Below are positions 9,890 through 61,112 of a stretch of 64,000 nucleotides of DNA, one piece after another. Both the position numbers and the translations under genes were made by a program. The notes under the pieces were generated by a model. That model was not told the DNA's origin. It made no database searches and saw only the letters and a program-made list of their open reading frames with translations. This stretch comes from Ulota crispa (Eukaryota; Streptophyta; Bryopsida; Orthotrichales; Orthotrichaceae): contig OY987243.1 of assembly GCA_963920765.1 (NCBI GenBank), positions 13,640,001 through 13,704,000 on the forward strand. Reading direction: 5' to 3'. Numbering within the stretch: position 1 is the first letter of the stretch; each line of letters begins with the position of its first letter.

Positions 9890-10824
9890 TTAGTCCCTAA
9901 AAGCCCAAGCCATTAGTTTTGTGAAAACCACTAAAAACTGCCACTTTTGGAGGAATGAGTAGAAAAGTTGGAATTTTTTTTTCTCTTAAAATTTAACCGT
10001 AGGATCTTGCCCTAGACCATGGGAGGTATTCATGGGAAAAAACCAACTCATTCTAGATGTAGACGAGTGAGATATTGGCATCTCAAGTGGCAAAAAAAGT
10101 TTTTTTCCCTGTCGCTCAAAAAATTTAAAAGCCTTTAACCACTCTTATAGCAAAATAATTGCTCTACACAAAGATGAGATTTATATTTTATCCATGTAAA
10201 AGACCAAGTTAGGTATGTGTAGGAGAATTTTTGAATGAATTGGAGGTATATAACATACTTTAAAAAACCTTTGTTTGCTAAAAGGTCTTGAAACTTACAA
10301 GCACATTATGCAAAATTGGAAGATTTATGTAAAATTCAGAAATTTGAATAAATCACATTAATCTAAATTGTGAAAACCAAAGATTCTTAATCTACTACAA
10401 CTTAGGAAAAAAATTAATAAAAAAATAACACTCAAATTGCTCAAAAAAGTAAAGCACCAAATTTTACAATGGGCAAAAGGATGGAGGTTTTGGAAGTCCC
10501 CCAAGATGGGTACCTTCCTCTCCACTCCCCTTTGCCCAAGTGTTCACACCTGTGCCCACAAGGGCTGATCCTCTTTAGAGTCAACACCCACTTACAAAGG
10601 AGAGGTCCTGCCTAAATTGCCCCTTCTCGCTTATTTCAAAAAATTATCGATTACTTCTCCATCAAATGTCATAGTGAAGAAAAAATTAGATGCCCACGTA
10701 GGTTGTGGAATTCCCCACCTTTAATACAAGTTTCAAAAACTCACACAAACTAGATTTGTTATAAGTACATGCCCAAAATCCATTTGTCCCCCAAAGGATA
10801 GTTGGGCCTTTAGTAGGAGGTTAA
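9890..10824 (-). mobile_element. TTAA-flanked element, L/M subfamily
   Basis: Begins TTAGTCCCTAAAAGCCC and ends GGGCCTTTAGTAGGAGGTTAA, a worn version of the TTAACCCC...GGGGTTAA ends. Its interior (CTGCCACTTTT near the left, TCCCCATCTT-like and CAATTTGTCCC-like near the right) matches, in opposite orientation, the elements at 25474 and 50807. About 935 bp, non-coding. Confidence 0.65.
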
Positions 10825-11453
10825 TGTGAGAAAAAGTCTTTCCCAAAATGGACTCTAAAAATCTTGAATTTTACATCAAGTGAAAATATTTTGGTGACTT
10901 AAAGTGAGTTTTGATAGTTCCTTCAAGATATTTCACCACTAATGTAAGGTCTCAAAGAAAATCATCATAAAATTCACTCTAAATTAGCAAAAACTCTTCA
11001 AAATGAAAAATTCAGAAGTCCAGAAATCAGTGCGTTTATCCAAATTAACAAATATTGCATTTAATGTAGACTAAGGTGAAGAACCATTAGAAGTTATTGA
11101 AATTTCTAAACCGTAAAGTCCGTGTTATGTTGATTTGATGTTATTCAAAATTTTAATTTTCTCCTTCAACTCCATTTGGGAATTGAGTCATATTTTGACC
11201 TTCATATGGTGAAGGGGCTAAGCCAAGTTCAATCCTTGACAAGGTTGCAAAGAAATGAGATACTTCTGAATCTAAAAGGAACCAATATTAATACTATAAT
11301 GTGAAGTTTCAAATGTTATGAGGTCTTAACCGACAATAATTATAAATTGTAGGAAACTGACCAATGCGTGATTGAAAACATAAATAAATAGAAGGATTTT
11401 GAAGTAGCCGCCTTGTTGGTGATGTCGTGAAAAAACTGGTTCGATACTTTAAA
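10825..11453. other. AT-rich intergenic DNA
   Basis: Nothing recognised. Confidence 0.4.
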
Positions 11454-12652
11454 ACGTCATATTCATTAACCTCTAAAGGACCATGGCCTTTATTTTGTCA
11501 AAAGACACTCAAAACTGCCACTTTTATGGTAAAGAGTATAAAAGTTTGAAAATCAGGCATTTTGCATATCTGACCGTAGAATTTTGTATTAAACTATTAT
11601 AAGAATGTGTCATACAAAACTCAAGAACTTTGATTGCATAGATTGGAAGATATTAGCATTTAAAAAGTAAAAAACAACTTTTTTTGCACCTTGCTTGATT
11701 AGATTTTTTAACTTTGAACATTTTTATTTTAAAATTTTTGCACCATAGAGTTTGGAATTCTATTTTTGCATGGTGGGAAGTTGAGTTGGGAATCTTGGGA
11801 AAAAATTTCAAAAAAGAATACTTAATTTTCATTCTTTAAAAAAACATTAGGTAGAAGAAGGTATGAGATTGAACAAAAACTTAAATTGCTAATAACCCTG
11901 CAATGGAATTGAAACGCAATAATCCCAATGGCGAGATTGTTCTAGAAAGCAAACTTCACCCTCTCCAACAATTTTTTTTGTAAAATTGTTAAATCTGCAT
12001 TCAAAAATGAAGTTTATAAGTTATTTTTTCAAGAAGATGCTTGAGTTGCCCAAAAAACAAGATTGTCCATAACTTTCTCATAACTAGTCCAAATGGAACA
12101 AATCAAAGCTCCAGAAGTAGATAAAGATATAATCTATGAGAAAAAATAAATAAATTTTTTTTCAAGTTTTTATAAGATTTTTTTTTGCTGCCCCTAGTCC
12201 CCAAATTTGTGCTTATTTGGGCATAACTTTTGCTCCCTTACATCAAATGGAATAAAAATTATATTCTCCAAAAGCTAATGTGTTTTTCTATCTTCAAAAA
12301 AAGTTTCAAAACATCAAGACAAAAATTGAGGCCGTGGGTACTTGCCCAAAATCCCATTTGTCCCCCGAAGGGACAATGGTCCTTTAGGGGTTAAATTGGT
12401 AAAACCAGATTCCCAAGTTGTACTTCTCCTTAAACCCAACATTTCTCCTTAAATTGTTTAAACACCAAATTCAAAGGTATCAAATTTGGTTTGAGCCACT
12501 GAGATTTCGTCCTCGCAAATTCTTCCTCTCAAGTGAAGGCACATGTACCAAAAAAACACTTTTGAAACCTAAAACTTGGTTTTAGGTAATCACCTTAAAC
12601 CTAAGTTATTCCCAAAATGGGTGTTTTTTCCCAAATTAGCAAATATGGCGTT
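11454..12652 (+). mobile_element. Q-family TIR element, split by a TTAA element
   Basis: The left end AACGTCATATTCA and right end CAAATATGGCGTT are inverted copies of the Q terminus (compare ATGCCATATTCGTTAAATTG at 38298). The Q body resumes at 12391 as TTAAATTGGTAAAACCAG and continues through TTTGAGCCACTGAGATTT. The element at 11466-12394 sits at the TTAA of the Q terminus. Confidence 0.75.
11466..12394 (+). mobile_element. TTAA-flanked piggyBac-like element A
   Basis: Starts TTAACCTCTAAAGGACC and ends GGTCCTTTAGGGGTTAA, 929 bp including both TTAA copies. Closely similar elements lie at 30272, 53473 and 58339. The undisturbed Q copy at 38298 carries one TTAA at the equivalent site, so one TTAA became two on insertion. 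TTAA targeting with C-rich termini is the piggyBac hallmark. No transposase is encoded, so assignment rests on ends and target only. Confidence 0.8.
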
Positions 12653-12977
12653 CTAAGGTAGGAACACCCATAAGCGTCAATGTCCCCATAACCGTCACCT
12701 TTGAAATCTTGAAAATTTTGTGGAAGTGAATAGATGTAATGACAAGGGTGTACAACATTTGAACATGAAGTCTTAAAAGACTAGTGGTTAAGGGTGCAAT
12801 GGCAGTTTGCTCTTTAAAAATTCACAACTTATTCTCACAATATCCAAATAATGCATTCGAAAGTGCAAACTCATTTTTTTAATGTTCCTACTAGGATCTT
12901 ATAATTTGCTAGTTGTTTATTAATGGTTTTTGTGTTCAAAACCCTTAGTTTGACGTTTATGGGTGCTCCTACCTTAA
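12653..12977. mobile_element. S-family TIR element, copy 1
   Basis: The left end CTAAGGTAGGAACACCCATA and right end TATGGGTGCTCCTACCTTAA are inverted repeats of about 26 bp. It abuts the Q element on the left. Element H enters at its right-end TTAA. The interior (TTCACAACTTATTCTCACAA) resembles copy S2 at 20497. Confidence 0.6.
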
Positions 12978-13908
12978 CCCCTAAATGCCCAAGGCACTAG
13001 ATTTTGGTGTCCAAAAAATTTTAGGAAACTTTGAAACCCTGTTGAAGGCACAAATTTTATTGTTTTGTGGTTTTTTTTGGAAAACTTGCGCACTGAAGTT
13101 AGCTTCACCGTTCTAATTCAACTTCCTTCATATCTTATTCCATTTGTTTTTGGTGGAAAGTTAACTACAAGCATACATTTTCAATCATGAATAGTGTTGT
13201 GAATAGTGTCATAACTGGTGTTGTGAATAGTGTCACAGAGCCTATGAGAAGTTGCCACATTGAAAAGATGGGCATCAAGTTGAGCAAAAGGTGAAGATTT
13301 CCCTTGGGCACTCCCTTGGGCAATAAGGGCCTTTTTTCTAAAATTTTGATATCTAACAAAATCTAAAAGTGCTTTTGGACTAATTTCACTTGGAATGTCT
13401 TTGTTATAGAAATTAGGATCCTTTCACCATTGAATTTTCTTTCATTCATAATGGTTTTTGGTCAATAATTGAAATTGAAAATTTCTTTGTATTAGACAAT
13501 TGTATTTTGACAGTTGAGTTGCAGGCTCATTTGTGAAATTGTGGTCATGGATTTGGAAGAGGGGCCGTTGGTTTTGAAGTAACAACAATAAACACTGAAG
13601 CATCCTAAGTGGTTGTTTCCCAATTTTATATCCTAAAGTTGCCAATTTGCATTAGAAGTTTTGGGTTTTGGGCAGCTCCAAAAACAGCCAAAAAACCATA
13701 CTCATCATCATTCAATCACAAATATCTTAAAATCCGTGAGATAATTTTGGATTCTTTTTGGGTAGTGCCATCTAGAAACCTTGAAGTTCAAGATTCAACG
13801 GTTACAATTTTGTTTTGATATTTAATAATGATCTTACAAGGACAATTCAAAAACTTCAAAACTACCTTTTGAAAATGAGAAAAACATCCTTGGGCATTTA
13901 AGGGTTAA
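12974..13908 (+). mobile_element. TTAA-flanked element H
   Basis: Begins TTAACCCCTAAATGCCCAAGG and ends CTTGGGCATTTAAGGGTTAA, 935 bp. It belongs to the TGCCC subgroup of the TTAA ends. A small GTGAATAGTGTCA-type tandem lies near 13190-13235. Its right TTAA is shared with the next element. Confidence 0.75.
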
Positions 13909-13984
13909 CCCCTGAATGCCCCAGAGAACTAAAAGTGTCCTCGATTCAGTGTATTTTTGAAAACCCTGGGCGTTCAGCGGTTAA
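13905..13984. mobile_element. 80-bp TTAA micro-element
   Basis: TTAACCCCTGAATGCCC ... GGGCGTTCAGCGGTTAA, exactly 80 bp including both TTAA. Only about the outer 17 bp at each end resemble other TTAA elements. A second 80-bp element with unrelated core is at 53397-53476. Confidence 0.75.
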
Positions 13985-15160: not shown

Positions 15161-15474
15161 CCACTAATACGAGAATGAAGATTGATTTATCATTATTCCA
15201 AATCACTATCAAGTAGCAGCTAACCATTCCATCACAAAACTTAGTTACGAAAACAAAGATTATCGGTTTACACGAGACAAATAGAAGCACAAACAATCCA
15301 GTTTTCTACCACAAATGCAAGAGTTCCGAATGTCGAACAGGACAACAGACGCAAGATCATCACCACATACAACGTTGTAAAAAAATTGTACACTTTCACA
15401 TGTAGATTTGCTTATCAGCAAACTACTAATAACGTTACAATCGTTCATCGCCTTCCCAAACTCAGGCAACAAGT

Positions 15475-15756: not shown

Positions 15757-18081
15757 TCATCCAATCTTGGTCCAGACAGCAGTGCTGGGAGTGCCCTGGT
15801 TCTCAACGTTGAGCAAGTAATACCCAGCAGGAGCAATAACAGAGCTGGGAGGGGCAACGACAATGGTAGTGTATATGTTCTTCACAGGACCAGTGAGAGA
15901 AGCCTGCTTGAGCACAAGCATGCGCTGATTCTGAGAGTACGTGTGCGTGACGAACGGCGGTGCATACATGCGCACCACAACACCAGCAGGAGCCTGTCCC
16001 ACAGTAAACGTCACCTTAAACGCCACGTTATATTTCAACACCGCCGGGGCGACAGCAATCTTCGGACGTCGGAGATTGTAGCCCTTGTTCAAATAGAACG
16101 GGCTGTACTTCTCGATGCGGAGTTCAGTCGGGTAAGGATACGTCTTTGGCTTAAACTGATAACCAGTATGTGGATTGCTGCCTGCGACCAGAATCCTGCC
16201 GTCAGGAAGAACAACAGCGGTGGAGTGGTAGAGGCGAGGAATTGTTGTAGGTGACCACGTGAAGAAACGGTTGTTGACAGGGCTGTACGTGACAGGAGTG
16301 AACACTGGATCGTACGCTACTTCCCACCCGGCAGCTCCTTTTCGAGCTCCGTTGATGATGAGCACTTCTCCGTTCGGGAGATTCAACATGTCGCCCATCA
16401 CTCGAGGAGTTGGCATGGTCGACATCGTCCACTTGGCAGCAGGAGATGTGATCACCATGCGACCGCAAGAGTTTAATGCCGTCTCGTAGATACCTTTGGC
16501 TGTGTTCGCAGATGCGGTAGTTGTTGTGCCGCCACACACCATGATCTCTACTTGTTTGTATCCGTCTACTCCTGAGAGAGGTAACGCCAGCATTCCAGAT
16601 GATGCAGGGTAGTTCCTCGGTCCACCTGCAATAATATCGGTCCAGTTAGATCCACAACAAACTCTTTGATTTCACTGAGGGGATTTGCAAATGAAACCCC
16701 TCTGCTTTAACGAAGGAATGTGACAGATGGAAAAATCTTAGAAGAAAGACAGACATGTTTTACAACTAACAGGAAAGACGTGAAAACTTTCTGAAACTGG
16801 CAGAGGTAATGTAATAAAAGTTTGCTGTGAATATACAGTTCGATCAATCTCGCTGAAGCGTACATCAGTTCTTCTCCTTGCAAAGCCTTAGAGAGTATGT
16901 AAGAGAGTGGTTTAGCAGTTGAGGGACGCGGTTGCAACGAACCTGGAATTTTGGGATATGTTCGAACCACTGTATTTTTCTTGTAGTTCAAGAGAATGGC
17001 ATCCTGGTTGGCCATGATGAAGACGTTTCCGTCGGGGCAGAGGAAAACCATGGGGTACAGGTTGTTCTCCACTCCGGGCTGAGTGGTTGCTCTCAAAAAG
17101 TCCAGCTTGTATTGGCCTTCGCCCTTCGCCCGAGGGCTGAACTCGTAACTGAAGGCCCGGCGACCTCCGACGATAATGACGCGGTTGTCAGGGAGAATGG
17201 CGTTGGATGCGTACCACCGAGCGGAGACTAAAGCGTTGGGTGCTTTCGGAAACTCTACCCAATCGTCTTTCGGTCCTGCACCGATGGTGCGAATGACAGT
17301 CCCGCCGTCATTCCAACCGCCAGTTGACAGAAGCGAGCCATCCGCCCTCAAGGCACCTGAGATCAAGATTTTCATGACAGAGTAACAAATTAGAATCCAT
17401 AAGGGGGAACTTGAACATCTCCAGCAATCAAAGCATCAACATAATCCACAACCACGGTCATAAACTGGAAGGAAATGTTGACACGTCGACCGATTACAGT
17501 GTTCTACAGCCGCCAAGGTAACACAAATACTTCAATTGGTGAAGAATGGCTGGCACTAAAACCCCGTGTTCTTTTCATGTGAGATTTGGTACAAGTCCGT
17601 TACTAGTATTAACTCACGAAGTGAATAGCAGTGGAAACAATACAAGCGATCATTGAGGAAGTTTCAGGAACTGAATGTGTTGCAAGCTAGACAAAGTACG
17701 GAAGCATATTAAAAACTGTGATTGGTGTTGTAGATATAAACCTGAGGAGCACCACGTGTCGGTGAAGACTTTGAGCGGCTTCACTTTGTTGGTGGTGATG
17801 TCAATAGAAATGGAGTGCGCCGTGCAGTCCGTCGTCAGCTTGAGATCCTTGGGGTCTTTGCGGCAGTAGCCATCAGGGAAAATCAGTGGAGAAGGACCGA
17901 AGTCTGTCCGGTCGTAACATACCACGCGGTTCGTGTGCATCAGCGCGCAGTGCATTGCAACCACTCCCGCATCCGCCACAACGAGCTGCCATGAGTCCGC
18001 CGCCGCTTTTGATTGTGCTGCCCAAATGGCAAGCAAAAGTACAAGTGTGGCACTCACGGACCCTCTCATTGACGCCACCAT
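15757..18081 (-). CDS. Glyoxal/galactose oxidase-like copper radical oxidase
   Basis: Three exons on the minus strand: 18081-17742, 17356-16943 and 16625-15757. Introns of 385 and 317 bp have GT...AG borders and both are phase 1. The joined frame is 540 residues, the usual plant length. Residues 1 to about 27 form a secretion signal (hydrophobic SATLVLLLAIWAA), so it should act in the wall or apoplast, oxidising aldehydes or terminal galactose with release of hydrogen peroxide. A glyoxal-oxidase beta-propeller domain covers about 45-290 and continues through Kelch-like blades. A DUF1929 C-terminal domain covers about 432-540. All five expected copper/radical ligands are visible: Cys111 (DTWCSSG), Tyr162 (RWYASN), Tyr384-His385 (RLYHST) and His479 (FVTHTYS). 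The start is the first ATG, followed at once by the signal peptide. No breaks are seen. Substrate cannot be read from sequence; plant homologues include pollen and seed-mucilage oxidases. Confidence 0.93.
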
Positions 18082-18715: not shown

Positions 18716-18719
18716 CGTG

Positions 18720-20986: not shown

Positions 20987-21842
20987 TTAACCCCTACAAG
21001 ACCAAGTCCCCTTGTTTTTAGCAACATAGCAAGTTTGGGCAATTACTTGTGATTAGAGATTTTCATGTTTTAGGTTGAAATTTTAACAAGATGTGAGAAC
21101 GAGGTTTATCTTCAATATGCATTAAATTTCATGACATTTGGAAGAATGAATAAGAAAATATGACCTAATATGTTGATTTTTTCCTTGGACAGGTAGTTTG
21201 GGCAAATTTCAGAAAATCACTTTCTTTAGAAACAAAAATTTAAAATTGGATCAGGAGGATTGTGTAAATGTGGAAAGCTTTGAATCATTAAGTTTTGATC
21301 AATGAGATGAAAGTTATGAGGAGATTTTGTTTGCGGGCAGTTATGGATTCCCTACTCTAAAATTAACTTTGAAGTCCTTTATTTTACTCAATTTTCATTA
21401 TTTTGGAAAAACAACAAAGCCAAAGGATGTAAATTCATTTATTACAACATCACAACTATTATGATTGGCATTTTTCATTTCCATAGTTAAATTCTTAACA
21501 ATTTAATATTGTTTTGAACCATCCTCTAGTCTCTACTTCTGGCTATTTTTTCCTCATATGTTGTATAATTCCAAATGATTTGAAACTTTTTTGACATGTA
21601 CCCTACTTAGACAGAATAAGGAATCTAGAGAAGCACCACCGACATTGCCTTATTTTCTTAAGAATTTTGCTTTTTGAATGATAGTTGCTTGATTTTTGAC
21701 AAAACGTTTTTGAATATTCAAACCATTTTAAATATCTTCCAATCCATGCAGTGGGAAATTTTGATTTTTTTCCAAATCTTTGAAAACTATCAATTTTGGA
21801 GAGCTTTTGGTGAAAACGCTGCTTAGTCCTTTAGGGGGTTAA
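20987..21842 (-). mobile_element. TTAA-flanked element E
   Basis: TTAACCCCTACAAGACCAAG ... GTCCTTTAGGGGGTTAA, 856 bp. The interior matches, in opposite orientation, element F at 59809 and, in the same orientation, the truncated element at 52336. Non-coding. Confidence 0.8.
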
Positions 21843-24206: not shown

Positions 24207-24500
24207 TTGCATTGACAAAAGTGCCACACATCAGTCCTCCTAATGGTTTTTTAAAGCTAGTAGTGGGTGTCAAACTTGGCCATTCTACATTGGGTAATTT
24301 TGGCACAAACCACCCCATAACTCAACCATTTTTGCTAGTTATCAAGTATGATAACTTTATCACCCACCTCTAGAGGTGAGTGACAACTCTAACTAGTTAT
24401 GCCCTCTTTTTATAAAAGTTATCAAGTGATCTTGTAGCTCTCTTCTAGCATGTTAACCTCCTCTCATAACAAAATCCTAAATTCTAATTTATGCATTTTT

Positions 24501-24772
24501 GTGATATTAAAGAGGTAGGATGTGATATTAAAGAGTTAAGGTGCAATATTAAAGACAGAGGGCGTGATATTAAAGAGGGAGGGTGTGGTATTAAAGAGGG
24601 AGGGTGTGATATTAAAGAGAGAGGGTGTGATATTAGAGAGGGAGGGTGTGACATTAAAGAGGGAGGGTGTGACATTAAAGAAGGAGGGTGAGACATTAAA
24701 GAGGGAGGGTGAAACATTAAAGAGGGAAGGTGTGACATTAAAGAGGGAGGGTGTGGTATCAAAGAGATTAGT
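24501..24772 (+). repeat. 21-bp minisatellite, left array
   Basis: About 12.5 units of ATTAAAGAGGGAGGGTGTGAT. Because the period is a multiple of three, all frames stay open and give a heptapeptide repeat, which is an artefact. Confidence 0.9.
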
Positions 24773-24810
24773 GTTACTACTAATCATACTAAAATCTCAA
24801 TGACGTTTGT

Positions 24811-25171
24811 AATATCACATCCTAACCTCTTTAATATCACACCCTCTTTCTCTAATGTCACACCCCTCCCTCTTTAATGTCATACACTCCCTCTGTAATG
24901 TCACACCCTCCCTCTCTAATGTCACACCCTCCCTCTCTAATATCACACCCTCCCTCTAATATCACACCCTCCCTCTTTAATTTCACACCCTCCCTCTTTA
25001 ATATCACACCCTCCCTCTTTAATATCACACCCTCCCTCTCTAATATCACACCCTCCCTCTAATATCACACCCTCCCTCTGTAATATCTCACCCTCCCTCT
25101 CTAATATCACACCCTCCCTCTTTAATATCTCACCCTCCCTCTTTAATATCTCACCCTCCCTCTTTAATATC
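24811..25171 (-). repeat. 21-bp minisatellite, right array, inverted
   Basis: The same unit in reverse orientation (CCCTCTTTAATATCACAC), about 17-18 units, some shortened to 18 bp. Spacer to the left array is under 40 bp. Confidence 0.9.
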
Positions 25172-25473
25172 ATGCATCAATCTTTGTGAGATTATCCCAT
25201 ACATAAGTTATGAAGACTTACTAAAAACTTTATCAAGTAGTTTGCGAAGCTTTGCAAGGGTGATAACTTTGGAGAATTTGGTTCAACCACCACCCCATAA
25301 CTCAAAAAAATATGTAAAGAGTTATCCCAAAATCTTAAAAAATGCCAGGTTTGACACCCACTAGTAGATTGAACCCCGGTACCAACACGTCAACATGTTG
25401 TAAGGAAACAACTTCTATTTTGAATACAAAAAAATTTAAGGAATTTATCCAAAATTTTAAAACTAAATTGAAT

Positions 25474-26420
25474 TTAACCCCTCAAGGCCCAAGTGGTCCT
25501 TTAGGGGCCAAGTGGGGTTTTGGGCATGTACCTACAGCTAAACTACTTTATGTGATTTTCTGAAACTTTTATTGAAGATGGGGAATTCAAAGATCTACGT
25601 GGGCATCTAACTTTTCCTTCATTCCAAAATTTATTGAAGAAGTTATGCATGAGTAACTAAAAAGTAGGGGTGAATGGGCAGCAAAAAAAATTGCATTTTT
25701 CCAAAATTAAAATTTGAAACTATTTCTTTAGATTTTTATGTATTTGGGAAGCTTTGAATCATTCAATTCTAATTAATGAGATGAAAGTTACGAGAAGTTT
25801 TAGTTTGTGGGCAGGTATGGGACTCCCAAACCTCCATTCCTTTTGCCCCTTGTAAAATTTGTTGCTTTACTTTATTGAGCTCTTTGTATATTTGTATTTT
25901 GACTTTTTTTTTCCCAAGTTGTAGTAGACTAAGATTCCTTGGTTCACACCATTTGGATCAAGTAATTCAAATTTCTCAATTTTACATATATTCTCCAATT
26001 TTGACTTGAGTATATGCAAATTTCATGGCCTTATGGCATTGCAAGATTTTACAAAGTATGTTCCACACCTCCAATTCATTTGAAAATTCTCCCACATATA
26101 CCTTACTTGGTCTTCTACATGGGAAAAAATAACCTGAACTTTGCGTAAAGCATTTTTTTTGATATAGGAGCTATCAAAGGCTCCTGTAATTTTTGGGCAA
26201 TGGGGAAAAGAAGTTTTTTTTCCACTTTAGATGTCAATATCTCACTTGTGTACATTTGGAATGAGCTGATTTTTTTCACACAAGTACCTCCCATAATCTA
26301 GGCAAGATCTTATAGTTGAATTTTCAAAAAAACTTTTTTCCTACCTTTCTACTTATTCCCCAAAAAGTGGCAGTTTTCAAAAACTTTCAAAAAAAAAGGG
26401 CTTGGGCCTTTAGGAGTTAA
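25474..26420 (+). mobile_element. TTAA-flanked element L
   Basis: TTAACCCCTCAAGGCCCAAG ... GGGCCTTTAGGAGTTAA, 947 bp. Close relative of element M (50807) and of 9890-10824. An extra CCTTTAGGGG copy lies just inside the left end. Confidence 0.8.
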
Positions 26421-30271: not shown

Positions 30272-31201
30272 TTAATCCCTACAGGACCATAGCCTTTATT
30301 TTGTCAAAAGACACTTGAAATTGCCACCTTTATGGCAAAGAGTAAAAAAGTTTGAAAATTGGTCATTCTTCATATCTAATTGTAGGATCTTGTACTAGAC
30401 CACAATAACAATGTCTCATACAAAACTCAAGAACTTTGACAGCACAAATTGGAAGAAATTTGCATTTAAAGTGTAAAAAATAACATTTTTTGCACCTTGC
30501 CTGACTAGATTATTTGACTTTGAAGTTTGTTAACTTAAAATTTTTGCACCACAAAGTTTGGAACTTTACTTTTTTGTGGTGGGAAGTTGAATTGGGAATC
30601 TAGGGAAAAAAACCAAAACAAAAAATACTTGATTTTCATTCTTAAGAAAAACATTAGGTAGAAGAAGGTATGAAATGAAACAAAACCTTAAATTGTTAAT
30701 AAACATGCAATGGAATTGAAATGCAATAATCCCAATGGTGAGATTGTTCTAGAAAGCTAACTTCACCCTCTCCAACAATTTGTTTTGGAAAAATGGTAAA
30801 CTTATATTCAAAAATGAAGTTTACAAGTTATTTTTTTAAGAAGATGCTTGAATTGCCCAAAAAACAAGATTGTCCATAACTTTCTCATAACTAGTCCAAA
30901 TGGAATGAATCAAAGCTTCAGATGTAGAAAAAGTTAAAATCTATGAGAAAATAAGATAATTTTCTTTTCAAGTTTTTATAAGACTTTATTTGTTGCCCGG
31001 AGTCCCCACATTTGTACTTATTTGGGCATAACTTTTGCTCCCTTGCCATCAATTGGAATAAAAATTGTATTCCCCAAAAGCTAATGTATTTTTATATCTT
31101 CAAAACAAAGTTCCAAAAAATTCGGACAAAAATTGAGGCCGTAGGTACTTGCCCAAAATCCCATTTGTCCCTCGTAGGGACAATGGTCCTTTACAGGTTA
31201 A
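30272..31201 (+). mobile_element. TTAA-flanked element B
   Basis: TTAATCCCTACAGGACC ... GGTCCTTTACAGGTTAA, 930 bp. Close relative of element A over the full length (shared CAAAAGACACT, CTGCCAC-type and CCATAACTTTCTCAT strings). Confidence 0.8.
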
Positions 31202-32215: not shown

Positions 32216-33274
32216 GGGAATTGATATGTGTACCACACCTTTTCAATTACTGTACCACACCCCAAAGTAAATTTTAGATTTTTACCATCAAAAAGCTAAA
32301 TTTGAGAATTTGGAATTCAGATTTGGGCTCAGAGACCATGATTTAGTCTAGAACCACAAAAAAAGTTGCAATTCAACAACACCCAATGAAAAAGCTTATC
32401 CTTTTTACAAACAAAAGTAAAAGTATCATTTTTCTCCCTAACTAAACTTTCTCATTGGTGTTGTTGAATTGCAACTTTTTTTACGGTTCTAGACTAAATC
32501 ATGGTCTCTAAGTCCAAATCCGAATTCCAAATTCTCAAATTTAGGTTTTTAACCCCTTAAGGCCCAAGGGGACCAAAATTGTCCCTCCTTGTTTGTAATT
32601 TGGGATGCCTAAACTTTCTTCATGATTAATTACAATGATTATTGTTATTCTTAAATTCTTGTTGAAGTCTTGTTTTAGTATCAAAATCTGATTTTGAAAA
32701 ATGACTAATTATTATTTTTCTATATAAGATTTTGTGCAAGGGTGTCCATTGCAAATCTTCACTTTCTAATGTTGAGAGTTCTTGGAAATGAGCCTAAAGT
32801 ACACTAGAACTTAGAGAAACAGTCTCATTAGAAACTTAATTTAAAAAATTGTAGAGTAAGTTTTAAGAAGCTGTAAATTGATTGGGGTTACACTTGTTGT
32901 ACTTTACATACTTGTATTTTTTTGGTATCCTCAATTTTAAAATTGAGATGTGAAAGAGGATTGAAAGACTTTAAATCACTTTCACAATTTTAACACCCTC
33001 TTCATCAAATGTTATAATCTTTCAATCCGTAAGTGATATTGTTGTGTTTTCTTTTCCAATGTGATCTCTAACATATCTAGTTTGAATTTGTATGGTTACA
33101 TATTTTAAAAATTTGATGCAACTTAGCAAAATGTTGACATTTTGTTCATTCAATAGCACATTTTGAGATACTCGGGAAAGTGCATGGACCTTGAGGGGTT
33201 GAAGGTTGAAATCTAAAATTTACTCTAGGGTGGGGTACAATAATTGAAAGGGTGTGGTACACATATCAACTCCC
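32216..33274. mobile_element. P-family palindromic element, copy P2, split by element J
   Basis: GGGAATTGATATGTG ... CACATATCAACTCCC. Flanking 9-mers TAAAGCTAC (32207-32215) and TAAAGCTAA (33275-33283) differ at one base, indicating a 9-bp duplication. Element J occupies 32549-33202 within the right arm. Confidence 0.8.
32549..33202 (+). mobile_element. TTAA-flanked element J
   Basis: TTAACCCCTTAAGGCCCAAGG ... CCTTGAGGGGTTGA, 654 bp. Same subfamily as element I (33471), with shared CTAATGTTGAGAG-like and TTTTTTGGTANCC strings. Inserted in the P2 arm; removing one TTAA-sized repeat restores the P sequence. Confidence 0.8.
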
Positions 33275-33470
33275 TAAAGCTAAGGGTATTTTTGATATTC
33301 CAAATAATGTAGGGGTATATGAAAGAATTCAAGGGTATTTTTTATGTTTTCCCTGAAAAAGTTCCTTTATCAAATTAACTGAAACTATTGATTTTTAGGT
33401 TACCATAAAGCATAAGTTTTGTACAAATCAACTTGCCGTGGTTGGAGTGTTGGATGAGTGGATGCGCTCT

Positions 33471-34122
33471 TTAACCCCTAAATGCCCAAGTGACCAGATT
33501 TGGGTCGCAATAAAACTTTGAAGATGAATAAAACCTTATCAAATCACTATTTTTAGTTTATTTTGTTCAATATAAGTTGGTTTTGAAGTCTATGTTCAAC
33601 ATCAAAAATCTGATTTTGAAAATGAAAATTGATGATTTTCCTACTCAAGAATTTGTACAAGGGTATCTATTGCAATCTTGAGTTTTCTAGTGTTGAAAGA
33701 TCTTGAAAATGAGCCTCAAATACACTAGAGCTTGGAGAAAAAATCACATTAGAAATCCATTTAAAGAATATATAGGAGTAGATTTTGAAAGCCGTAAATT
33801 GATTAAAGTTAAACATATAATGACCTTAAACCTCATATTTTTTTGGTAACCAACTTTTTAAATTTGACATGTGAAATGAGAATTAGAAAACTATAAGTCA
33901 CTTTTGCAGATTTAACACACTCATGTCCAAACATTATAATTTTTCAAACTATAAATGAAATTGTTGTGTTTTTTTTTTCCATGTAATCTCTAACATGTTT
34001 AATTTAAATTTATACGGCTACAATTGAAAAAAATTGACGAAATTTTTAAAAAGGTTGGTTGATTGTTTTGTTTTATGGAAATTCCAGGAAGCTTAGATGG
34101 GGCTTGGGCATTTAGGGGTTAA
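33471..34122 (+). mobile_element. TTAA-flanked element I
   Basis: TTAACCCCTAAATGCCCAAG ... CTTGGGCATTTAGGGGTTAA, 652 bp. Best-preserved ends of the TGCCC subgroup. Non-coding. Confidence 0.85.
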
Positions 34123-34323: not shown

Positions 34324-34699
34324 TTAACCCTTGAACGTCAACAAGGACGAAAAATCGTCCCCTGGCCACCAAAAAAAACAAACTGAGTTATAAATAAAAG
34401 TTATTTTTCAGCTAAATTTTTTTTGTAGAAGTGATCTTAAACACATGGTGCACCATTGAAGGCAAAAAACAATTTCAGTAAATGTATTCATATTTTTTGA
34501 TAACCCAAATTGTGAGAAGATTTAGAGACACGGTGTTAGGTTCCATGCTGCCCATTTTGCACTTTTCATGAGGGCATCATGCACTGTTGACTTTTGCAAC
34601 TCTAAGAAACAAAACTTTAATGCGTGGGCACCTGCCACACCATTGTAGAAACCACTATAGAGGGTAGGCACGACCACCCATCTGACATTCAAGGATTAA
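34324..34699 (-). mobile_element. TTAA-flanked element, G family
   Basis: TTAACCCTTGAACGTCAAC ... GACATTCAAGGATTAA, 376 bp. Complement of the element at 60746-61112 (shared GGGCATCATGCACTGTTGAC). Confidence 0.75.
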
Positions 34700-42538: not shown

Positions 42539-42674
42539 ACGGTAGTTCAAGATTGGGCTTCTGCACAAATGAAGCATGTATTCAATTAATATAGAATATA
42601 TATAGGCATTGCATTGGTCCATATACACTCTTTGTATAATTTGCAACTTTACATTGATTAAAAATTGAATTTAT

Positions 42675-45814: not shown

Positions 45815-46540
45815 GGGAAATTTTCATGGATACCCCTGAAGTTTGCAATATTTTCTTAGGCACCATTGCCTTTTCAGAAATTTCACAAATACCCTTGGAC
45901 CAAAGAAATTAGGCATTTGTTTTTTTATGCATGTCACTTCCTACTCCCTTTGTGCGCATACTACTTCCTTTTTGTTATGCGTTTGCACAAAAAAAGAAAG
46001 GTAGTAACATGCACAACAAAACATGGAATTGATATGTGCACACCAGGGGGTTGATATTTGCACACCCCCCCGGGAGGTAAATTATAGATTTCAACCATCA
46101 AAAATTTGAATTTGAGATCTTTGAATTTAGATTTGGACTTAGAGACCATGGTTTAATCTAGAATCATAAAAAAGATTGCAATTGAACAACACCTAGTGAA
46201 ATAACTTTTTTTTTTTTACAAACAAACGTAAAAGTAACACATTTTCCCTAGCTAAGCTTTTTCACTAGGTGTTGTTCAATTGCAACATTTTTTTTATGGT
46301 TCTAGAGTAAATTATGGTCTCTAAATCCAAATCTGAATTCAAAATTCTCAAATTTAGCTTTTAGATGGTAGAAATCTATAATTTATCACACAGGGGTGTG
46401 CAAATATCAACCCCAGTGTGCACATATCAATTCCCCAAAACAAACACCTAATTTTTTTGATCCAAGGGTATTTGTGATATTTCTGAAAAAGCAGTAGTAT
46501 CTATGTAAATACTACAGAGTGATATCCATGAAAATTTCCC
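45815..46540. mobile_element. W-family palindromic element, copy 3, hosting P3
   Basis: GGGAAATTTTCATGGATACC pairs with ATCCATGAAAATTTCCC. 9-mers TCAAATTAA (45806-45814) and TTAAATTAA (46541-46549) differ at one base: a 9-bp duplication. P3 lies in its central region. Confidence 0.8.
46024..46435. mobile_element. P-family palindromic element, copy P3
   Basis: GGAATTGATATGTGCACAC ... GTGTGCACATATCAATTCC. Inside W3, with CAAAACA on both sides. 412 bp, the same length as P1. Confidence 0.75.
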
Positions 46541-47772: not shown

Positions 47773-48331
47773 GGGCCTTACCATATATCAAAAGTAGGCC
47801 TTGCAATTAATGAGATCAAAATTTTGTGCATGTTTATTTATGGGAATTGATATATGCACACTTGGGGTTTGATATATGCATACCGGGGTGGGGAGGGAGG
47901 TAAATTTTAAAAATCGATCATCAAAAAACTGAATTTGAAAATTTTGAATTTAGATTTGGATTTAGAGACCTTGATTTTGTTTGGAACCACCATGGAGGTT
48001 ACAACTGAACAATGCTCAATGGAAGAGCTCAACTTTTTTTACAAATGAGGGTAAAAGTAATAATTTTCCCCTTAGATAAGCTTTTCCATTGGGCGTTTCT
48101 CAATTGTAACCTCTGTTGTGGTTCTAAATTAAATCAAAGTCTCTAAACCCAAATTTGAATTCAAATTTTCCAAATTTATTTTTTTGTTCATGAATATTTA
48201 AAATTTACCCCCCCATTCCGGTGTGCATATATCAAACCCTAGCTGTGCATGTATCAATTCCCATAAAATAACATGCACAAAAATTTGATCACGTTAGATG
48301 CAAGGCCTACTTTTGAAATATGATAAGGCCC
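47773..48331. mobile_element. X palindromic element hosting P4
   Basis: GGGCCTTACCATATATCAAA at the left pairs with TTTGAAATATGATAAGGCCC at the right, continuing through AAGTAGGCCTTGCA and CATGTT. The P4 element occupies the exact centre. Confidence 0.65.
47842..48262. mobile_element. P-family palindromic element, copy P4
   Basis: GGGAATTGATATATGCACAC ... GCATGTATCAATTCCC. Located between the two X arms. Confidence 0.75.
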
Positions 48332-50806: not shown

Positions 50807-51785
50807 TTAACCCCAAAAGGCCCAACTGTGCCCTCGCGAGACAGGTGAGGTTTCAGGCATGTACTAACAACTAAACTATTTTGTGTGATTTTCTGAAATT
50901 TTTATGGAAGATGGGGAATTCAAAAATCTATCTGGGCATTTAAGTATTTCTTCATTTCAACATTTATTAAAGAAGTTATGTATGAATTTTTGGAAAATGT
51001 GGGAAGGCTGGCAACTCAAAAACATTTTAAAAATTGAACTTTTTAAAAATAAAATCTGAAATTGGTTCTTGAGAGAGAGATATATATATATATATAAAAG
51101 TGAGAAGCTTTGAATAATTCAATTCCAATTTATGAGATGAAAGTTATGAGAAGTCTTATTGGTTTGCGGGTAGGTATGGTACTCCCAAACCTCCATTTCT
51201 TTAGCCCCTTGTAAAATTTGGTACTTTACTTTTTTGAGCTCTTTGTGTATTTGTTTTTTGACTTTTTTTTTCCAAGTTGGAGTAGACTAAGATTCCTTGG
51301 TTTTCACTATTTGGATAAAAGTAACTCAAATTTCTGAATTTTACATTAATCCTCCAATTTTGAGTAGTGTATATGCAAATTTTAGGGCATTACGGCATTG
51401 CAAGATTTTACAAAGTATGACTCACACCTCCAATATATTTGAAACTTCTTCCACACTTACCTAACTTGGTCTTCTACATGGAAAAGGTAAACTTCAACTT
51501 TGTGTAGAGCAATCTTTTTGATATAAGAGAGGTCAAAGGCTTTTGAAATTTTTGGGTAGCAAGGAAAATAACTTTTTTTTTTCACTTTAGATGTCAATAT
51601 CTCACTTTCTCCACATCTAGAATGAGCAAATTTTTTTCCCACAAGTACCTCCCATAGTCTAGGGCAAGATGTTACGGTTGGATTTCCAAAAAAAACTTTG
51701 TTTCCTCCCTTTCTTCTCATTCCTCCAAAAGTGGCAATTTTCAATGACTTTCACAAAAAAAGAAGCTTGGGCCTTTAGGGGTTAA
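50807..51785 (+). mobile_element. TTAA-flanked element M
   Basis: TTAACCCCAAAAGGCCCAA ... GGGCCTTTAGGGGTTAA, 979 bp. Close relative of L. Contains a short GA/TA microsatellite at 51074-51098. Shares its right TTAA with element N. Confidence 0.85.
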
Positions 51786-52015
51786 CCCTTAAAGGACCAT
51801 AGGGCATAGTATATACACTGCCGTATAATTAGTATTTGGTACCAATAAGAACTTTTAATTTGAGATCCCAAGTAGCTCACTAGAACCGCTTTGGTCTATT
51901 CTCCAACTTTTTTGTTGATTTCAAATGTAGTAGAGGTGTGGATCCATTCCAAATACAAGAAAATTACCTTGTATTGTATTGGTTGCAGCGGCACACTTAG
52001 TCCTATAGGGGTTGA
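51782..52015 (+). mobile_element. Short TTAA-flanked element N
   Basis: TTAACCCTTAAAGGACCATAG ... GTCCTATAGGGGTTGA, 234 bp. It starts on the TTAA that ends element M. The right flank continues into an R-family body. Confidence 0.7.
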
Positions 52016-52194: not shown

Positions 52195-53238
52195 TTTAGG
52201 GCTCGGTTTCCTGCACATACGTTGATGTGGGGCTAAGGTGGAAAAGCATTGTTTTTTTGCCGGTCAAAAGATGTGAAAGTTTAGATATTTACCATTGGGA
52301 GGTTGAATTTGGGAATTTTGAATTCACATTTGGATTTAACCCCCAAAGGACCAAGCCCCCTTTTTTTTAGCAATAGAGCAATTTTGGGACTTGTCATTGG
52401 AGATCTTCATATTTTAGGCTGAAATTTAATAGAATGTGGGAACAAGGTTTATCTTTCATATGCACTAAATTTCATGACATCTGAAAGTATGAATAAGAAG
52501 ATATGGCCTGATATGTTGTTTTTTCACTCGATGGGCAGCGTAGGCAGATTTTAAAAAGTCATTTCTTTCAAAAAAAGAATTTTGAAATTGGTTTAGGAGA
52601 TTTATGTGAATGTGGAAAGCTTTGAATCATTCCATATTTATCAATGAAATGAAAGTTATGAGGAGTTTTTGTCTGCGGGCAATTATGAAATTTCTACTCT
52701 AAAATAAACTTCAAAATCCTTTATTTTACTCAATTCTCAATATTTTGGAAAAATAAAAAAATCAAAGGATGTAAATTATTAATTACAACATTACAACCTC
52801 TAAGATTGTTATTTTTCATTTCAAAAATTAAAATCTAACAATTTAGTTTTTTGAATCATTTTTTACTTCTTTTTACTTACTGTTTTTTTACCATATATTG
52901 TATAATTCCAAATGATTTGATTTTTTTTGGCATGTACTCTACTTAGCCATAATAAGAAATCTAAAAAAGCCCCACCCACACGGCCTTTTTTCTTTATAAA
53001 TTTCACCTTCTAAAGGGTAGCTGCCCGGTCTTTCATAACACATTTTTTAATATTCAAACCATTGTATCTTCCAATCCACCTAGTGAAAAATTCTGAATTT
53101 TTTCCCAAATCTTCCCAAACTTTCCTACTACAAGATCCTATGGTTACACAAGCATAAAAATGTTTTTATTTTCAAATTTGGTTGATGCTCTCAAAATGGC
53201 AGGTTTGGAGAGTTTTTGTTGAAAACATTGCTTGGTCG
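52195..53238 (-). mobile_element. Truncated E-type TTAA element inside an R copy
   Basis: An R left end (GATGTGGGGCTAAGGTGGAA) runs to 52335. TTAACCCCCAAAGGACCAAG then opens an E-type element at 52336, collinear with 20987-21842. It stops near 53238 after GAAAACATTGCTTGGTC, so the GGGGTTAA end and the remaining R are missing. Confidence 0.7.
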
Positions 53239-53396
53239 CTCACCCATCCCCGTCATGTCTCCATGGGTGTTACCTGACATTGTCAGGGACTAACAAGTGT
53301 AAATCAAATGGTTATGAGTAATTAAGTGCTAGTTATGGGTGACAGAGTGATGGTTGTGAGTGACTCACATGACAGTTTTGAGTACCCATCTCACTA

Positions 53397-53476
53397 TTGA
53401 ACCCCTAAATGCCCAAGGCACTAGAATTTGGTGGTTTTCACACCAAAATTTGGTATCGTGGACATTCAGGGGTTAA
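53397..53476. mobile_element. 80-bp TTAA micro-element
   Basis: TTGAACCCCTAAATGCCCAAG ... GACATTCAGGGGTTAA, 80 bp. The core forms a hairpin (AATTTGGTG / CACCAAAATT). Shares its right TTAA with element C. Confidence 0.75.
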
Positions 53477-54384
53477 CCCTAAAAGGACCAAGGCCTTTAT
53501 TTTGTCAAAAGACACTCAAAACTGCCACTTCTATGGCAAAGAGTAAAAAAGTTTGAAAATTAATCTTTTTGCATATTTGACTATAGGATCTTGTACTAGA
53601 CTAGTATAGGAGTGTGTCATACAAAACTCAAGAACTTGACCACATAGATTGCAAGATATTTGCTTTTAAAGTATAAAAAACACCTTTTTTTGCACCTTGC
53701 CTAACAAGATTATTTGACTTTGAACTTTTTTAACTTAAAATTTTTGCATCACAAAATTTGGAATTCTATTTTTGCATGGTGGGAAGTTGAGTTGGTAATC
53801 TCGGGAAAAAAAATAACAAAAAATAATTAATTTTCATTCTGTAAGAAAAACATTAGGCAGAAGAAAGTATGAGATTGAACAAAAACTTAAATTGCTAATA
53901 ACCCTACAATGGAATTGAAACTCAATAATCCCAATGGTGAGATTATTCTGGAAAGCAAACTTCACCCTCTCCAATAGTTTGTTTTGGAAAAATACTAAAA
54001 TTGCATTCAAAAATGAAGTTTATAAGTTATTTTTTTCAAGAGGATGCTTGAATTGCCCAAAAAACAAGATTCTCCATATCTTTCTCATAACTAATCCAAA
54101 TGGAATTAATCAAAGCTTCAAATGTAGACAAAGGTATAATCTATAAGCAAAAAAGAATTCAAGTTTTTATAAGAATTTTTTTGTTGCCAAGAGTCCCCAA
54201 ATTTGTGCTTATTTGGGCATAACTTTTGCCCCTTGGCATTGATTGGAATAAAAATTAGATTCCCCAAAAGCTAATGTGTTTTTATATCTTCAAAAAAGTT
54301 TCAAAAATCCAAGACAAAATTGAGGCGTACCTGCCCAAAATCCCATTTGTCTATTGAACAGATAAGTGGTCCTTTAGGGGTTAA
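53473..54384 (+). mobile_element. TTAA-flanked element C
   Basis: TTAACCCTAAAAGGACCAAGG ... GGTCCTTTAGGGGTTAA, 912 bp. Full-length relative of A, B and D. Confidence 0.85.
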
Positions 54385-57189: not shown

Positions 57190-58246
57190 GGGAACTGCTA
57201 AATCCACCCCACTTTCTGCTAAATCCACCACAAGCCCCACCGCACACCCCACCCCACACCACTGGTCCCACCGAGCATTACAAGCCCCACCTCAAACTCA
57301 AAGCTGCTTCTTTTGCAAAATCCTACATTTCTCAATTTCACCCTGCTTTTTAATCCATGCACCAAAAATTAAAAATTAATAATGGTTTTTAACTTATTAA
57401 TTTCAATTTCACTTTATTTTTTTCACATTTCATTTGACCAACTATCAATTGCTTTTGGGCTCTCCCCAATCCCCATATATAATCTAGAAGTTCCCTAAAA
57501 AAAAAAGTGAATTGATATGGGCACACATGGGGTTTGATATGCACACCCCTTGGGGGTAAATTTTAGAATTTACCAAAAAAAGTGGAACTTGAAAACTCGA
57601 ATTTAAATTTGAGATTAGAGACCTTGATTTATTCTACAGCCATGAAGGAGATTACAATTGAACATCACCCAATGAAAAAGCTTACTTTTTTTAAACAAAC
57701 AAAAGTAAAACTAATACTTTCCCCACTAGCTAAGATTTTTTATTGGGTATTGTTCAACTGTAGTCTCCTTCATGGCTCTAGAATAAATCAAGATCTCTAA
57801 GCCCAAATCTAAATTCAAGTTTTCAAGTTCCACTTTTTGATGGTAAAAATCTGAAATTTACCCCCAAGGGGTGTGCATATCAAACCCCAGGTGTGCCCAT
57901 ATCAATTCACTTTTTTTTAGGGAACTTCTAGATTATATATGGGGATTGGGGAGAGCCCAAAAGCAATTGATAGTTGGTCAAATGAAATATGAAAAAAACA
58001 AAGTGAAATTGAAATCAATAGGTTAAAAACCAATTTAAAATTTTAATTTTTGGAGCATGGATTAAAAAGCAGGGTGAAAATAAGAAATGTAGGATTTTGC
58101 AGAAGAAGCAACTCTCAGTTTGGGGTGGGGCCTGTGATGCTTGGTGGGGCCAATGGTGTGGGGTGGGGTGTGCGGTAGGGCATGTGGTGGATTTAGCAGA
58201 AAGTGGGCTGGATTTAGCAGAAAGTGGGGTGGATTTAGCAGTTTCC
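57190..58246. mobile_element. Y palindromic element hosting P5
   Basis: GGGAACTGCTAAATCC pairs with GGATTTAGCAGTTTCC. The arms are about 315 and 336 bp and nearly complementary throughout. 9-mers TTTTCAAAA (57181-57189) and TATTCAAAA (58247-58255) differ at one base. The right end has one extra GGATTTAGCAGAAAGTGGG unit. P5 sits in the oligo-A/oligo-T centre. Confidence 0.85.
57507..57910. mobile_element. P-family palindromic element, copy P5
   Basis: GTGAATTGATATGGGCACAC ... GTGCCCATATCAATTCAC, 404 bp. Flanked by the oligo-A and oligo-T inner ends of Y. Confidence 0.75.
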
Positions 58247-58338: not shown

Positions 58339-59263
58339 TTAACCCCTAAAGGACCAAGGCCTTCATTTTGTCAAAAGACACTCAAAATTGCCACTTCTAT
58401 GGCAAAGAGTAAAAAAGTTTGAAAACTAGTCTTCTTGCATAATTGACCATAGGATCTTCTACTAGACTTGTATAAGAATGTGTCATTCAAAACTTAAAAA
58501 CTTTACTAGCACAGATTGCAAGATATTTGAGTTTAAAGTATAAAAAACAAGTTTTTTTGCACCTTGCACGACTAGATTATTTGACTTAAACTTTTTTAAC
58601 TTAAATTTTTTGCACCATGGAGTTTGAGGTTTATTTTTGTATGCTAGGGAATTGAGTTGAGAATCTTTGGAAAAAAACCAAAACAAAAAATACTTAATTT
58701 TCATTTTAAAAAAACATTAGGTAGAAGAAGGTATGAGATTGAACAAAAACTTAAATTGCTAATAACCTTGCAATGGAATTGAAACTCAATAATCCCAATG
58801 GTGAGGTTGTTCTAGAAAGAAAACTTCACCCTCTCCAATAATTTTTTTTGAAAAATGTTAAGTTTCCATTCCAAAATGAACTATAAAAGTTATTTTTTCA
58901 AGAGGATGTTCGAATTGCCCGAAAAACAAGATTGTCCATAACTTTCTCATAACTAGTCCAAATGGAATGAATAAAAGCTTCAGATGTAAACAAAGATATA
59001 ATCTACAAGGGGAATTTTTTTTAAAAAAAAATCAAGTTTTTGTAAACTCATTTTTGTTGCCCGGACCTCCCAAATTTTTGCTTATTTGAGCATAACTTTT
59101 GCTCCTTGGCATTGATTGGAATAAAAATTATATTCCCTCAAAGCTAATGTGTTTTCCTATCCTCAAAAAAAATTTCAAAAAATCAAGACAAAAATTGAGG
59201 CCATAGGTACCTGTCCAAAATTCCATTTGTTCCTTGAACGGACAATGATCTTTTAGGGGTTAA
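58339..59263 (+). mobile_element. TTAA-flanked element D
   Basis: TTAACCCCTAAAGGACCAAGG ... GATCTTTTAGGGGTTAA, 925 bp. Full-length relative of A, B and C. Confidence 0.85.
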
Positions 59264-59756
59264 GATAATTGGACTCCAGGTCAAGCCACATTATAAGAAA
59301 CCGGCGTTTCAAAAAGACATTTTGTAAAAAACAAGTGATGGAAAAATAAATGGCAACATTTGCTTCTTTTTGAAAATATGGATCGTTTGAATTTACTCTC
59401 TTTATTTTTTGACTTGTTTCAAACATGTGATTTTGAGTCTCGTCTATAACCTCTTGCTCTTGAATGGTGGAGAGGGCATCTTTAGTAAAGCAATGCTCGA
59501 AATTTGAAGAAAAGTGGTTGATTGTCCTTCAATTCTTGAAAAATACAATTTATTTTTTCTTCCTTTCCAAACCGGCTGCTTTAGCTTGTGTGGCCCTTGC
59601 ATGAGGAATGAGGGGAGGAGACGAAGTACAACAAAGCTTGGTACATCCATGTCAAGATTATCCATTCTAACAAAGTAAAAATAACATGTGCTATCACAGA
59701 ATAGATATATTCAACTGTGCGCTGCCGTACTCAACAAGCTCAGGTTCAATGTTTGG
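59264..59756. other. Intergenic DNA
   Basis: 59560-59600 (GCTTGTGTGGCCCTTGC) resembles 58290-58310. Otherwise nothing recognised. Confidence 0.35.
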
Positions 59757-59808
59757 AACACCATATTCGTAATTTGAGAAAAACAGGTGTCCTACTTTGT
59801 ACTCCACC

Positions 59809-60730
59809 TTAACCTCTAAAGGGCCAAGCAAAGTTTTCACCGAAAACTCTTCAAAACTGCCATTTTTAGAGCATTAACCAAATTTGAAAACAAAAACATT
59901 TTTATACATATATGATCGTAGAATCTTGTAGAAGAATGGTTTTAGAAGATGTGGAAAAAAACTCAGAGTTTTCCACCACGTGGATTGGAAGTTTGAATGG
60001 TTTGAATATTCAAAAATGTCTTGTGAAAAACCAGACAGCTACCCTTCAGAAGGTGAAATTCCTAAGGAAAAAAGGCCATGTGGGTGGTGCTTCTCTAAAT
60101 TCCTTATTCCACTTAAGTAAAGTACATGTTAAAAAAGTTTCAAATCATTTGGAGTTGTATAACATATGGAAAAAAATTAGTAAGTAAAAAGAAATAGAGA
60201 ATGATTCAAAACTCTAAATTGTTAAGAATTTCATTATGGAAATGAAAAATGCCAATCCCAATGGTTATGATGTTGTCATAAACAATTTACATCCTTTGGT
60301 TTTGTTTTTTTTCCAAAATGTTGAAAATTGAGTAAAATAAAGGATTTCAAAGTTTATTTTGGAGTAGAGAATCCATAACTGCCTGCAAACAAAAAATCCT
60401 CATAACTTTCATCTTGTTGATCAAAATAGAACGAGTCAAAGCTTCCTACTTGCACATAAATCTCCTAAACCAGTTTCAAATTTTTGTTTTTGAAAAAAGT
60501 GATTTTAAAAAATCTGCCCAGGTCGCCAGATGAACGTAAAAAGCAAGATATTAGGCCATAACTTTTTACTCATAATTCAAAATGTCATGAAATTTAGTGC
60601 ATATGAAAGACAAAACTTGTCCCCACATTCTATGAAAATTTCAGCCTAAAATATGAAAAGCTCCAATCACGGATACCTACCCAAAATTGCTATGTTTCTA
60701 AAAAAGGGGGTTTGGTCCTTTAGGAATTAA
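59809..60730 (+). mobile_element. TTAA-flanked element F
   Basis: TTAACCTCTAAAGGGCCAAG ... TGGTCCTTTAGGAATTAA, 922 bp. Complement of element E (20987). Enters Q at CACCTTAA. Confidence 0.85.
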
Positions 60731-60745
60731 ACCCAAAAAGTTACC

Positions 60746-61112
60746 TTAACCCTTAAAGGACGGATGGATCATTGTGGCTTGCCCTGCCCGTAGCACTCTA
60801 TAGTGTTTTGCACATGGGCTCTAGTAGTATTGCTTCAAAATGTTGGAAAAGTCAATAGTGCATGGTGCCCTCATGAAAATTGCAAGAAGGGTAGCTTGGG
60901 AGCTAACACCATGTTTTTGATTCTTATCACAATTTGGTTTACAAAAAAAATGAATGCATCTCAAGAGGTAATTTTTTGTCTTCCATGATGGACCATGTGT
61001 TTCTGGTCACTTCTGAAAAGAAATCAGATGAAAAACAACTTTTTTCTGAATCTTAAAATATTTTTTCAGGGTCGAAGGACATTTTTTGTCCTCCTCAACG
61101 TTCAGGGGTTAA
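60746..61112 (+). mobile_element. TTAA-flanked element G
   Basis: TTAACCCTTAAAGGACGGATG ... GTTCAGGGGTTAA, 367 bp. Complement of 34324-34699. Only 15 bp from element F, in the same Q copy. Confidence 0.8.

Follow-up and report, generated by a model that had tools for sequence, protein, structure and literature searches.

Non-autonomous piggyBac transposons in a plant genome and transposase-bearing elements with the same ends

Introduction

The piggyBac transposon is best known from insects, and most work on it concerns its role in animals or its use as a genetic tool. The superfamily is defined by CC[C/T]T termini and a terminal inverted repeat (TIR) of 12-19 bp (PMC2872659). In the T. ni piggyBac, the palindrome bound by the cysteine-rich domains spans bp 17-33, its axis lying near bp 25. 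There, 35 bp of the left end are sufficient for certain activities, and the symmetric pair LE35/LE35 is reported to show no activity in cells with the wild-type transposase but weak activity with hyPBase (PMC7351741). Short piggyBac miniature inverted-repeat transposable elements (MITEs) were described in coral as CMITEs, which are 96-108 bp long, were estimated at 18-737 copies per family and have a partner with the same TIR, AmiPB1 (PMC2872659). The presence of piggyBac in plants as such is already in print (PMC10004981, PMC10813416, PMC6890710). PiggyBac is one of the seven superfamilies named for angiosperm MITEs in a passage that holds no copy numbers or partners (PMC10004981), and in a seedless plant, the fern Ceratopteris richardii, 1,230 annotated fragments cover 122,417 bases, or 0.00% (PMC6890710). 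A large piggyBac radiation in plants was not reported in the titles, abstract openings and passages seen of the open-licence literature, which is weak evidence of absence.

Here, a 64,000-nucleotide stretch of DNA (contig OY987243.1, positions 13,640,001 to 13,704,000, hereafter the window) and the genome around it were analysed for the repeated elements with C-rich ends that crowd the window. We conclude with high confidence that these are MITEs, non-autonomous members of the piggyBac superfamily, in a plant that is probably a moss, and that they have same-ended, transposase-bearing partners of 8.3-8.8 kb. The target, the terminal repeat and a long terminal sequence are common to the MITEs and the piggyBac transposase elements, in which the gene is broken in the copies examined. 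They are a large new case of an already known piggyBac MITE type.

Like the T. ni piggyBac, the elements have a TTAA target, CCC-rich ends and a palindrome axis near bp 25 (PMC7351741), and the transposase resembles that of T. ni in sequence, with the three D motifs in register in locus L042, and has a cysteine-rich domain. In contrast, the host is a plant, the elements of 8.3-8.8 kb contain inserts, and symmetric 79-bp elements multiplied here, whereas LE35/LE35 is inactive with the wild-type T. ni transposase in cells (PMC7351741). The coral CMITEs share the near-constant length, the TTAA duplications, the CC[C/T]T ends, the tandem neighbours and a same-TIR partner, but the shortest elements here are mostly 79 bp, and 134 exact-ended micro-elements plus ~0.9-kb families in thousands stand against the coral copy numbers (PMC2872659). 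Compared with the 0.00% annotated in the fern (PMC6890710), the estimated share here is 4-9%.

piggyBac transposases and elements that share the MITE ends

The genome gave 120 matches to PF13843, all above the cut-off (116 scored of 528 candidates), some of which are parts of one copy; 10 of the 120 have no internal stop. There were no matches in 14 control genomes, although this control is of little weight. L042, which is the same copy as L019, aligns with the solved transposases of piggyBat (2.5e-20) and piggyBac (7.2e-19) with the three D motifs in register, and we take their residues to have the catalytic roles. In the stop-free L043, N replaces the D of the third motif. The original prediction, made from the letters of the window, expected a transposase with a catalytic D core and a cysteine-rich C-terminus. 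Among 30 loci, the cysteine-rich motif was found behind the transposase domain in 14 (antisense 0 of 30), and the three D motifs were matched by pattern in 6, among them the partner locus L025. A tree of the 30 loci has several deep clades, one of which consists of L025, L026, L034 and L038 (98/96) with L011 as its sister (100/99).

Within 1.5 kb of the transposase domain no TIRs held up, because the elements extend further. In wider stretches around the L025/L026/L034/L038 clade, the right end of the MITEs was found in all four loci, as exact TTAACCCCTAAAGG in three and as TTAACCCCTAAAAG (AAAAG) in stretch X46, and the left end TTAACCCCTAAAGGACC(A/G)TTGTC in three. The resulting elements, with a DDE_Tnp_1_7-type transposase inside the ends, measure 8,255 bp (X45, 1830-10084), 8,829 bp (X46, 1327-10155) and 8,530 bp (X48, 1612-10141); X45 and X46 contain copies of another repeat. 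The homology of these three loci, which lie on three chromosomes, begins and ends at TTAAs, and in each the left end is followed by an internal block, the transposase and then the right end. Behind the domain, each of the four partner loci keeps a relic of the cysteine motif, with E values of 4e-6, 2e-5, 0.003 and 0.017 in a small database, two clear and two weak.

The MITEs, lettered as in the list below, share more with these loci than the tips. In MITE I, bases 1-209 correspond to the left end (73-81%) and 343-947 to the right end (69-74%) of the partner loci, and in MITE J, bases 1-211 (72-78%) and 369-979 (69-74%). A-D carry left-end sequence on their right side (62-79%, in up to 3 loci) and right-end sequence, weakly, on their left side (60-65%). 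By these alignments, I and J have the make-up of internal-deletion derivatives of the 8.3-8.8 kb transposase-bearing elements; the evidence for derivation from an autonomous element covers I and J, not the AAATGCCC and 79-bp families. The partner that the original prediction proposed to look for, a piggyBac transposase gene between ends like those of the MITEs, is thus present in this clade, and the reading of the elements as TTAA-targeted and piggyBac-like is supported by the partner ends plus about 200 bp of common sequence on the left and about 600 bp on the right.

A second transposase-bearing piggyBac family of 5.03 kb was found at L039:763-5789 and L040:997-6023, which are 90% alike and have the ends TTAACCCCTCATCGCC and TTAACCCTTCATTGCC. 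It is a separate family and was rejected as the source of the AAAGG MITEs. L044, at first sight a 6.6-kb element whose ends match, was also rejected: the right end is that of a nested MITE. On the minus strand of L046 (6256-6705), just outside a piggyBac element, lies an RVT_1-like fragment of 26.0 bits, below the cut-off of 29.6.

Target site and anatomy of the ends

The ends CCCCTAAAGGNCC/CCCCTAAATGCCC carry the CC[C/T]T terminal motif and a TIR within the 12-19 bp range. Flanks other than TTAA, which the original prediction held to be incompatible with piggyBac, are not the rule: TTAA stands directly before 10,100 of the 11,954 CCCCTAAAGGNCCA sites genome-wide. Duplication of the TTAA target was compared with an empty site in one paralogous case. 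The element at 32549-33202 sits in a copy of a repeat found at 552-963 and is flanked by TTAA and TTGA; a 4-bp target fits, imperfectly, and the fit is fair, not clean. The repeat itself belongs to a palindromic family of ~410 bp (window 552-963, 46025-46434, 47844-48260 and 57509-57908, with the element insertion site at 32216-33275).

Abutting elements with a single common TTAA were found at 13905-13908, 51782-51785 and 53473-53476 in the window and at 253 places genome-wide. By a rough hand estimate, 253 is about what random use of TTAA gives, so no targeting is read from them.

When 42 distinct ends from all stretches read were pooled, the best dyad was at 25.0 (0.446, versus a maximum of 0.354 in 20 shuffles), which corresponds to the subterminal palindrome of piggyBac with its axis near bp 25. 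The same dyad was best for the 12 AAATG ends (0.531 versus 0.429 in shuffles).

Proposed mechanism and alternative explanations

A piggyBac transposase would bind the 13-bp terminal repeat of the elements and, through its cysteine-rich domain, also the palindrome whose centre lies ~25 bp from the tip. It would cut the element out and insert it at TTAA, and short derivatives would thereby be amplified, down to elements of ~79 bp that hold little beyond two ends back to back.

Several observations weigh against this explanation. The transposase is intact in none of the four partner loci, which all carry stops and fail the strict cysteine motif. No left end was seen for X47 in the wider stretch read, and no partner of the AAATGCCC families was found, for which few clades were examined beyond +-1.5 kb. 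All three D motifs are matched in only the 6 of 30 loci given above. The palindrome is uneven among the end types: for the 23 AAAGG ends, the dyad at 25.0 ranks only fourth and barely exceeds the shuffles (0.424 versus 0.404), behind 14.5, 15.0 and 28.5, and in the 7 other ends it falls outside the best six. The three uninterrupted paralogous copies of the target repeat are without TTAA and have a single tetramer at the site, TTGA in two and TAGA in one.

Kolobok, Sola3, Tc1/mariner and Harbinger use TTAA, TA or TTA as target, and MITEs of such a superfamily could merely resemble piggyBac. A TA duplication within a TTAA target would look identical, so the transposase decides the superfamily, and no profile search for the transposases of these four was made. 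However, the same ends bound piggyBac transposase genes together with long common terminal sequence, and the bp-25 palindrome matches that of the T. ni piggyBac (PMC7351741), which makes another superfamily highly improbable. It is also very unlikely that the 8-kb elements are transposase relics caught by chance between two independent MITE insertions. Nested MITEs do occur beside transposases, as the right end in L044, and in X45 another left-type end lies 80 bp beyond the left end of the element, but chance is opposed by the TTAA-bounded homology with the same internal order in three loci on three chromosomes and by right ends at like distances in four loci.

The source may also be divided among piggyBac clades, with the AAAGG families coming from the L025/L026/L034/L038 clade and the AAATGCCC and 79-bp families depending on another clade or cross-mobilised. 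Such a division is a serious possibility, though we hold it to be somewhat less than probable. The several deep clades among the 30 loci, the second family with TTAACCCCTCATCGCC ends and the missing AAATGCCC partner speak for it; on the other side, all these families have ends that are distinguished by only a few bases, and few clades were examined beyond +-1.5 kb. It is compatible with the explanation by piggyBac MITEs and same-ended partners, not exclusive of it.

Elements of the window

A fuzzy scan (exact TTAA, up to 3 substitutions in 13 bp) found 27 ends in the window, versus 6 for the reversed motif. The 18 bounded elements are listed with the strand relative to the transposase-bearing elements.

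9890..10824, minus strand, E9890, ~0.93-kb piggyBac MITE; left TTAA mutated to TTAG; resembles transposase-element ends
11466..12394, minus strand, A, 929-bp piggyBac MITE; ends, self-BLAST, likeness to transposase loci
12974..13908, no strand, 935-bp element with AAATGCCC ends; ends from fuzzy scan
13905..13984, no strand, 80-bp micro-element; one TTAA (13905-13908) common with left neighbour
20987..21842, plus strand (inferred), L, 856-bp element; ends, self-BLAST
25474..26420, plus strand, I, 947-bp MITE; ~209 bp from the left and ~605 bp from the right of transposase-bearing element
30272..31201, minus strand, B, 930-bp MITE; ends, self-BLAST, likeness to transposase loci
32549..33202, no strand, 654-bp element; inserted in another repeat's copy; flanks TTAA / TTGA
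33471..34122, no strand, 652-bp element with AAATGCCC ends; ends, self-BLAST
34324..34620, no strand, Q34326, incomplete 60746-family copy with a single end; provisional right bound
50807..51785, plus strand, J, 979-bp MITE; left ~201-211 bp and right ~611 bp of transposase-bearing element
51782..52015, no strand, 234-bp element; one TTAA (51782-51785) common with J; right flank TTGA
52336..53257, plus strand (inferred), M, ~0.92-kb element; right bound provisional
53398..53476, no strand, 79-bp micro-element; ends from fuzzy scan
53473..54384, minus strand, C, 912-bp MITE; one TTAA (53473-53476) common with the 79-bp micro-element
58339..59263, minus strand, D, 925-bp MITE; self-BLAST, likeness to transposase loci
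59809..60730, minus strand (inferred), N59809, 922-bp element; ends, self-BLAST
60746..61112, no strand, 60746 element, 367 bp; ends from fuzzy scan

They range from 79 to 979 bp and total 12,540 of 63,800 called bases (19.7%), the predicted fifth of the window. Twelve of the 18 measure 0.65-0.98 kb, mostly ~0.93 kb; the others measure 367, 297, 234, 80 and 79 bp or are bounded provisionally. About 19 elements of up to 1.3 kb had been predicted. The families and the ends proved real by self-BLAST and fuzzy scan, with a count of 18, and the 1.3-kb size was not upheld, as 52336-53476 reads as two elements, of ~0.92 kb and 79 bp, with an unassigned stretch between them. TTAA is intact on both sides in 12 of the 18 as bounded; among the other 6, E9890 and Q34326 have bounds 1-2 bases off, and the second end of Q34326 is not recognisable. 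No open reading frame of at least 130 aa lies inside any window element. The elements are short and non-coding with high copy number, as MITEs are. The single TTAACCCCTCATCGCC end at 55564, which resembles that of the L039 family, has no partner end and was excluded from the 18.

In self-BLAST, A, B, C and D are 82-87% alike over 932-959 columns, I and J 81% over 985 columns, and L, M and N59809 79-81% to one another over 807-916 columns; E9890, reversed, is 76-77% alike to I and J over 614-635 columns. The common internal motif order of the original prediction was only partly recovered. CATAACTTT occurs twice in A, B, D and N59809, as predicted, but once in C and once reversed in L, J and M, and CTGCCA[C/A]TTTT is confined to A, E9890 and, reversed, I. 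For the D family, 40 of 4,176 candidates were scored, which are D itself and 39 places at 87-93%, each of at least 889 bases. Given this divergence, the D family is not very recent.

The 79-bp micro-elements

Micro-elements of 68-98 bp with exact AATG-type ends (palindromic pattern) were found at 134 places genome-wide (control 0). Exactly 79 bp was the length of 39 among the 50 matches listed of the 134. The layout is symmetric, 79 = 4 + 35 + 1 + 35 + 4, with TTAA as the outer 4 bp on either side, and each half has the 35-bp length of the sufficient T. ni left end. Among 23 of the 39, a hand-picked set, likeness over the inner 45 bp averages 69%, with a minimum of 44%, and the best dyads within the half are at 14.0 (0.51) and 25.0 (0.50; the maximum of 200 shuffles at 25.0 was 0.315). 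These symmetric elements are the least expected part of the findings.

We infer that a piggyBac transposase multiplied the 79-bp elements. More tentatively, the piggyBac transposases of this plant may accept symmetric end pairs, with the 79-bp elements being two complete end modules (13-bp TIR, short spacer, bp-25 palindrome) set back to back and multiplied in more than one sequence subfamily. If true, the LE35/RE63 asymmetry needed by the wild-type T. ni piggyBac in cells would not be a rule of the superfamily, and these elements plus the ~930-bp families would form one of the largest land-plant radiations of piggyBac. The 79-bp elements suggest that a natural substrate can be very small, and they allow a direct test of whether the two ends must differ.

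Genome-wide abundance

The exact 14-mer TTAACCCCTAAAGG occurs at 15,411 sites (7,719 + 7,692) in the 275-Mb genome, and its backwards control at 1 (1 + 0). TTAACCCYTNAANGNCC occurs at 24,790 sites, or 90/Mb (control 2). In the window, 13 TTAACCCYTNAANGNCC sites amount to 203/Mb, ~2.25 times the genome mean, so the window's fifth does not extrapolate and was ruled out as a genome-wide share. Scaling the 19.7% by end density gives ~9% of the genome. In five 7-kb stretches at round coordinates, 1,528 of 35,005 bases (4.4%, in 2 of the 5 stretches) are alike to window elements, with 0 in the reversed control; this estimate is sensitive only to families present in the window. The genome share is therefore put at a rough range of ~4-9%, below the fifth implied by the original prediction.

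Given its 120 transposase matches, the several deep clades among 30 loci and 24,790 recognisable ends, this genome would offer piggyBac systems native to a plant. The finding would also put a name to repeats that might otherwise be annotated as unknown. A PsaD gene with leader in the genome supports a plant (photosynthetic eukaryote) host. Among the PDB chains closest to this PsaD are photosystem chains of the moss Physcomitrium (8htu, 7ksq and 6l35); the highest score was that of 9vfj.

Other features of the window

Outside the elements, the minus strand at 15757-18081 carries open reading frames of at least one gene, the first with a galactose-oxidase-like domain. A direct repeat of 2.1 kb, 82% alike, is present at 1771-3934 and 40424-42541, and an inverted repeat at 35213-36085 has arms of 369 nt, 98% complementary, with a spacer of 135 nt. 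Tandem arrays were seen at 24479-25235, where 21-bp repeats form two oppositely oriented blocks, and at 62071-62437, with a unit of ~20 bp.

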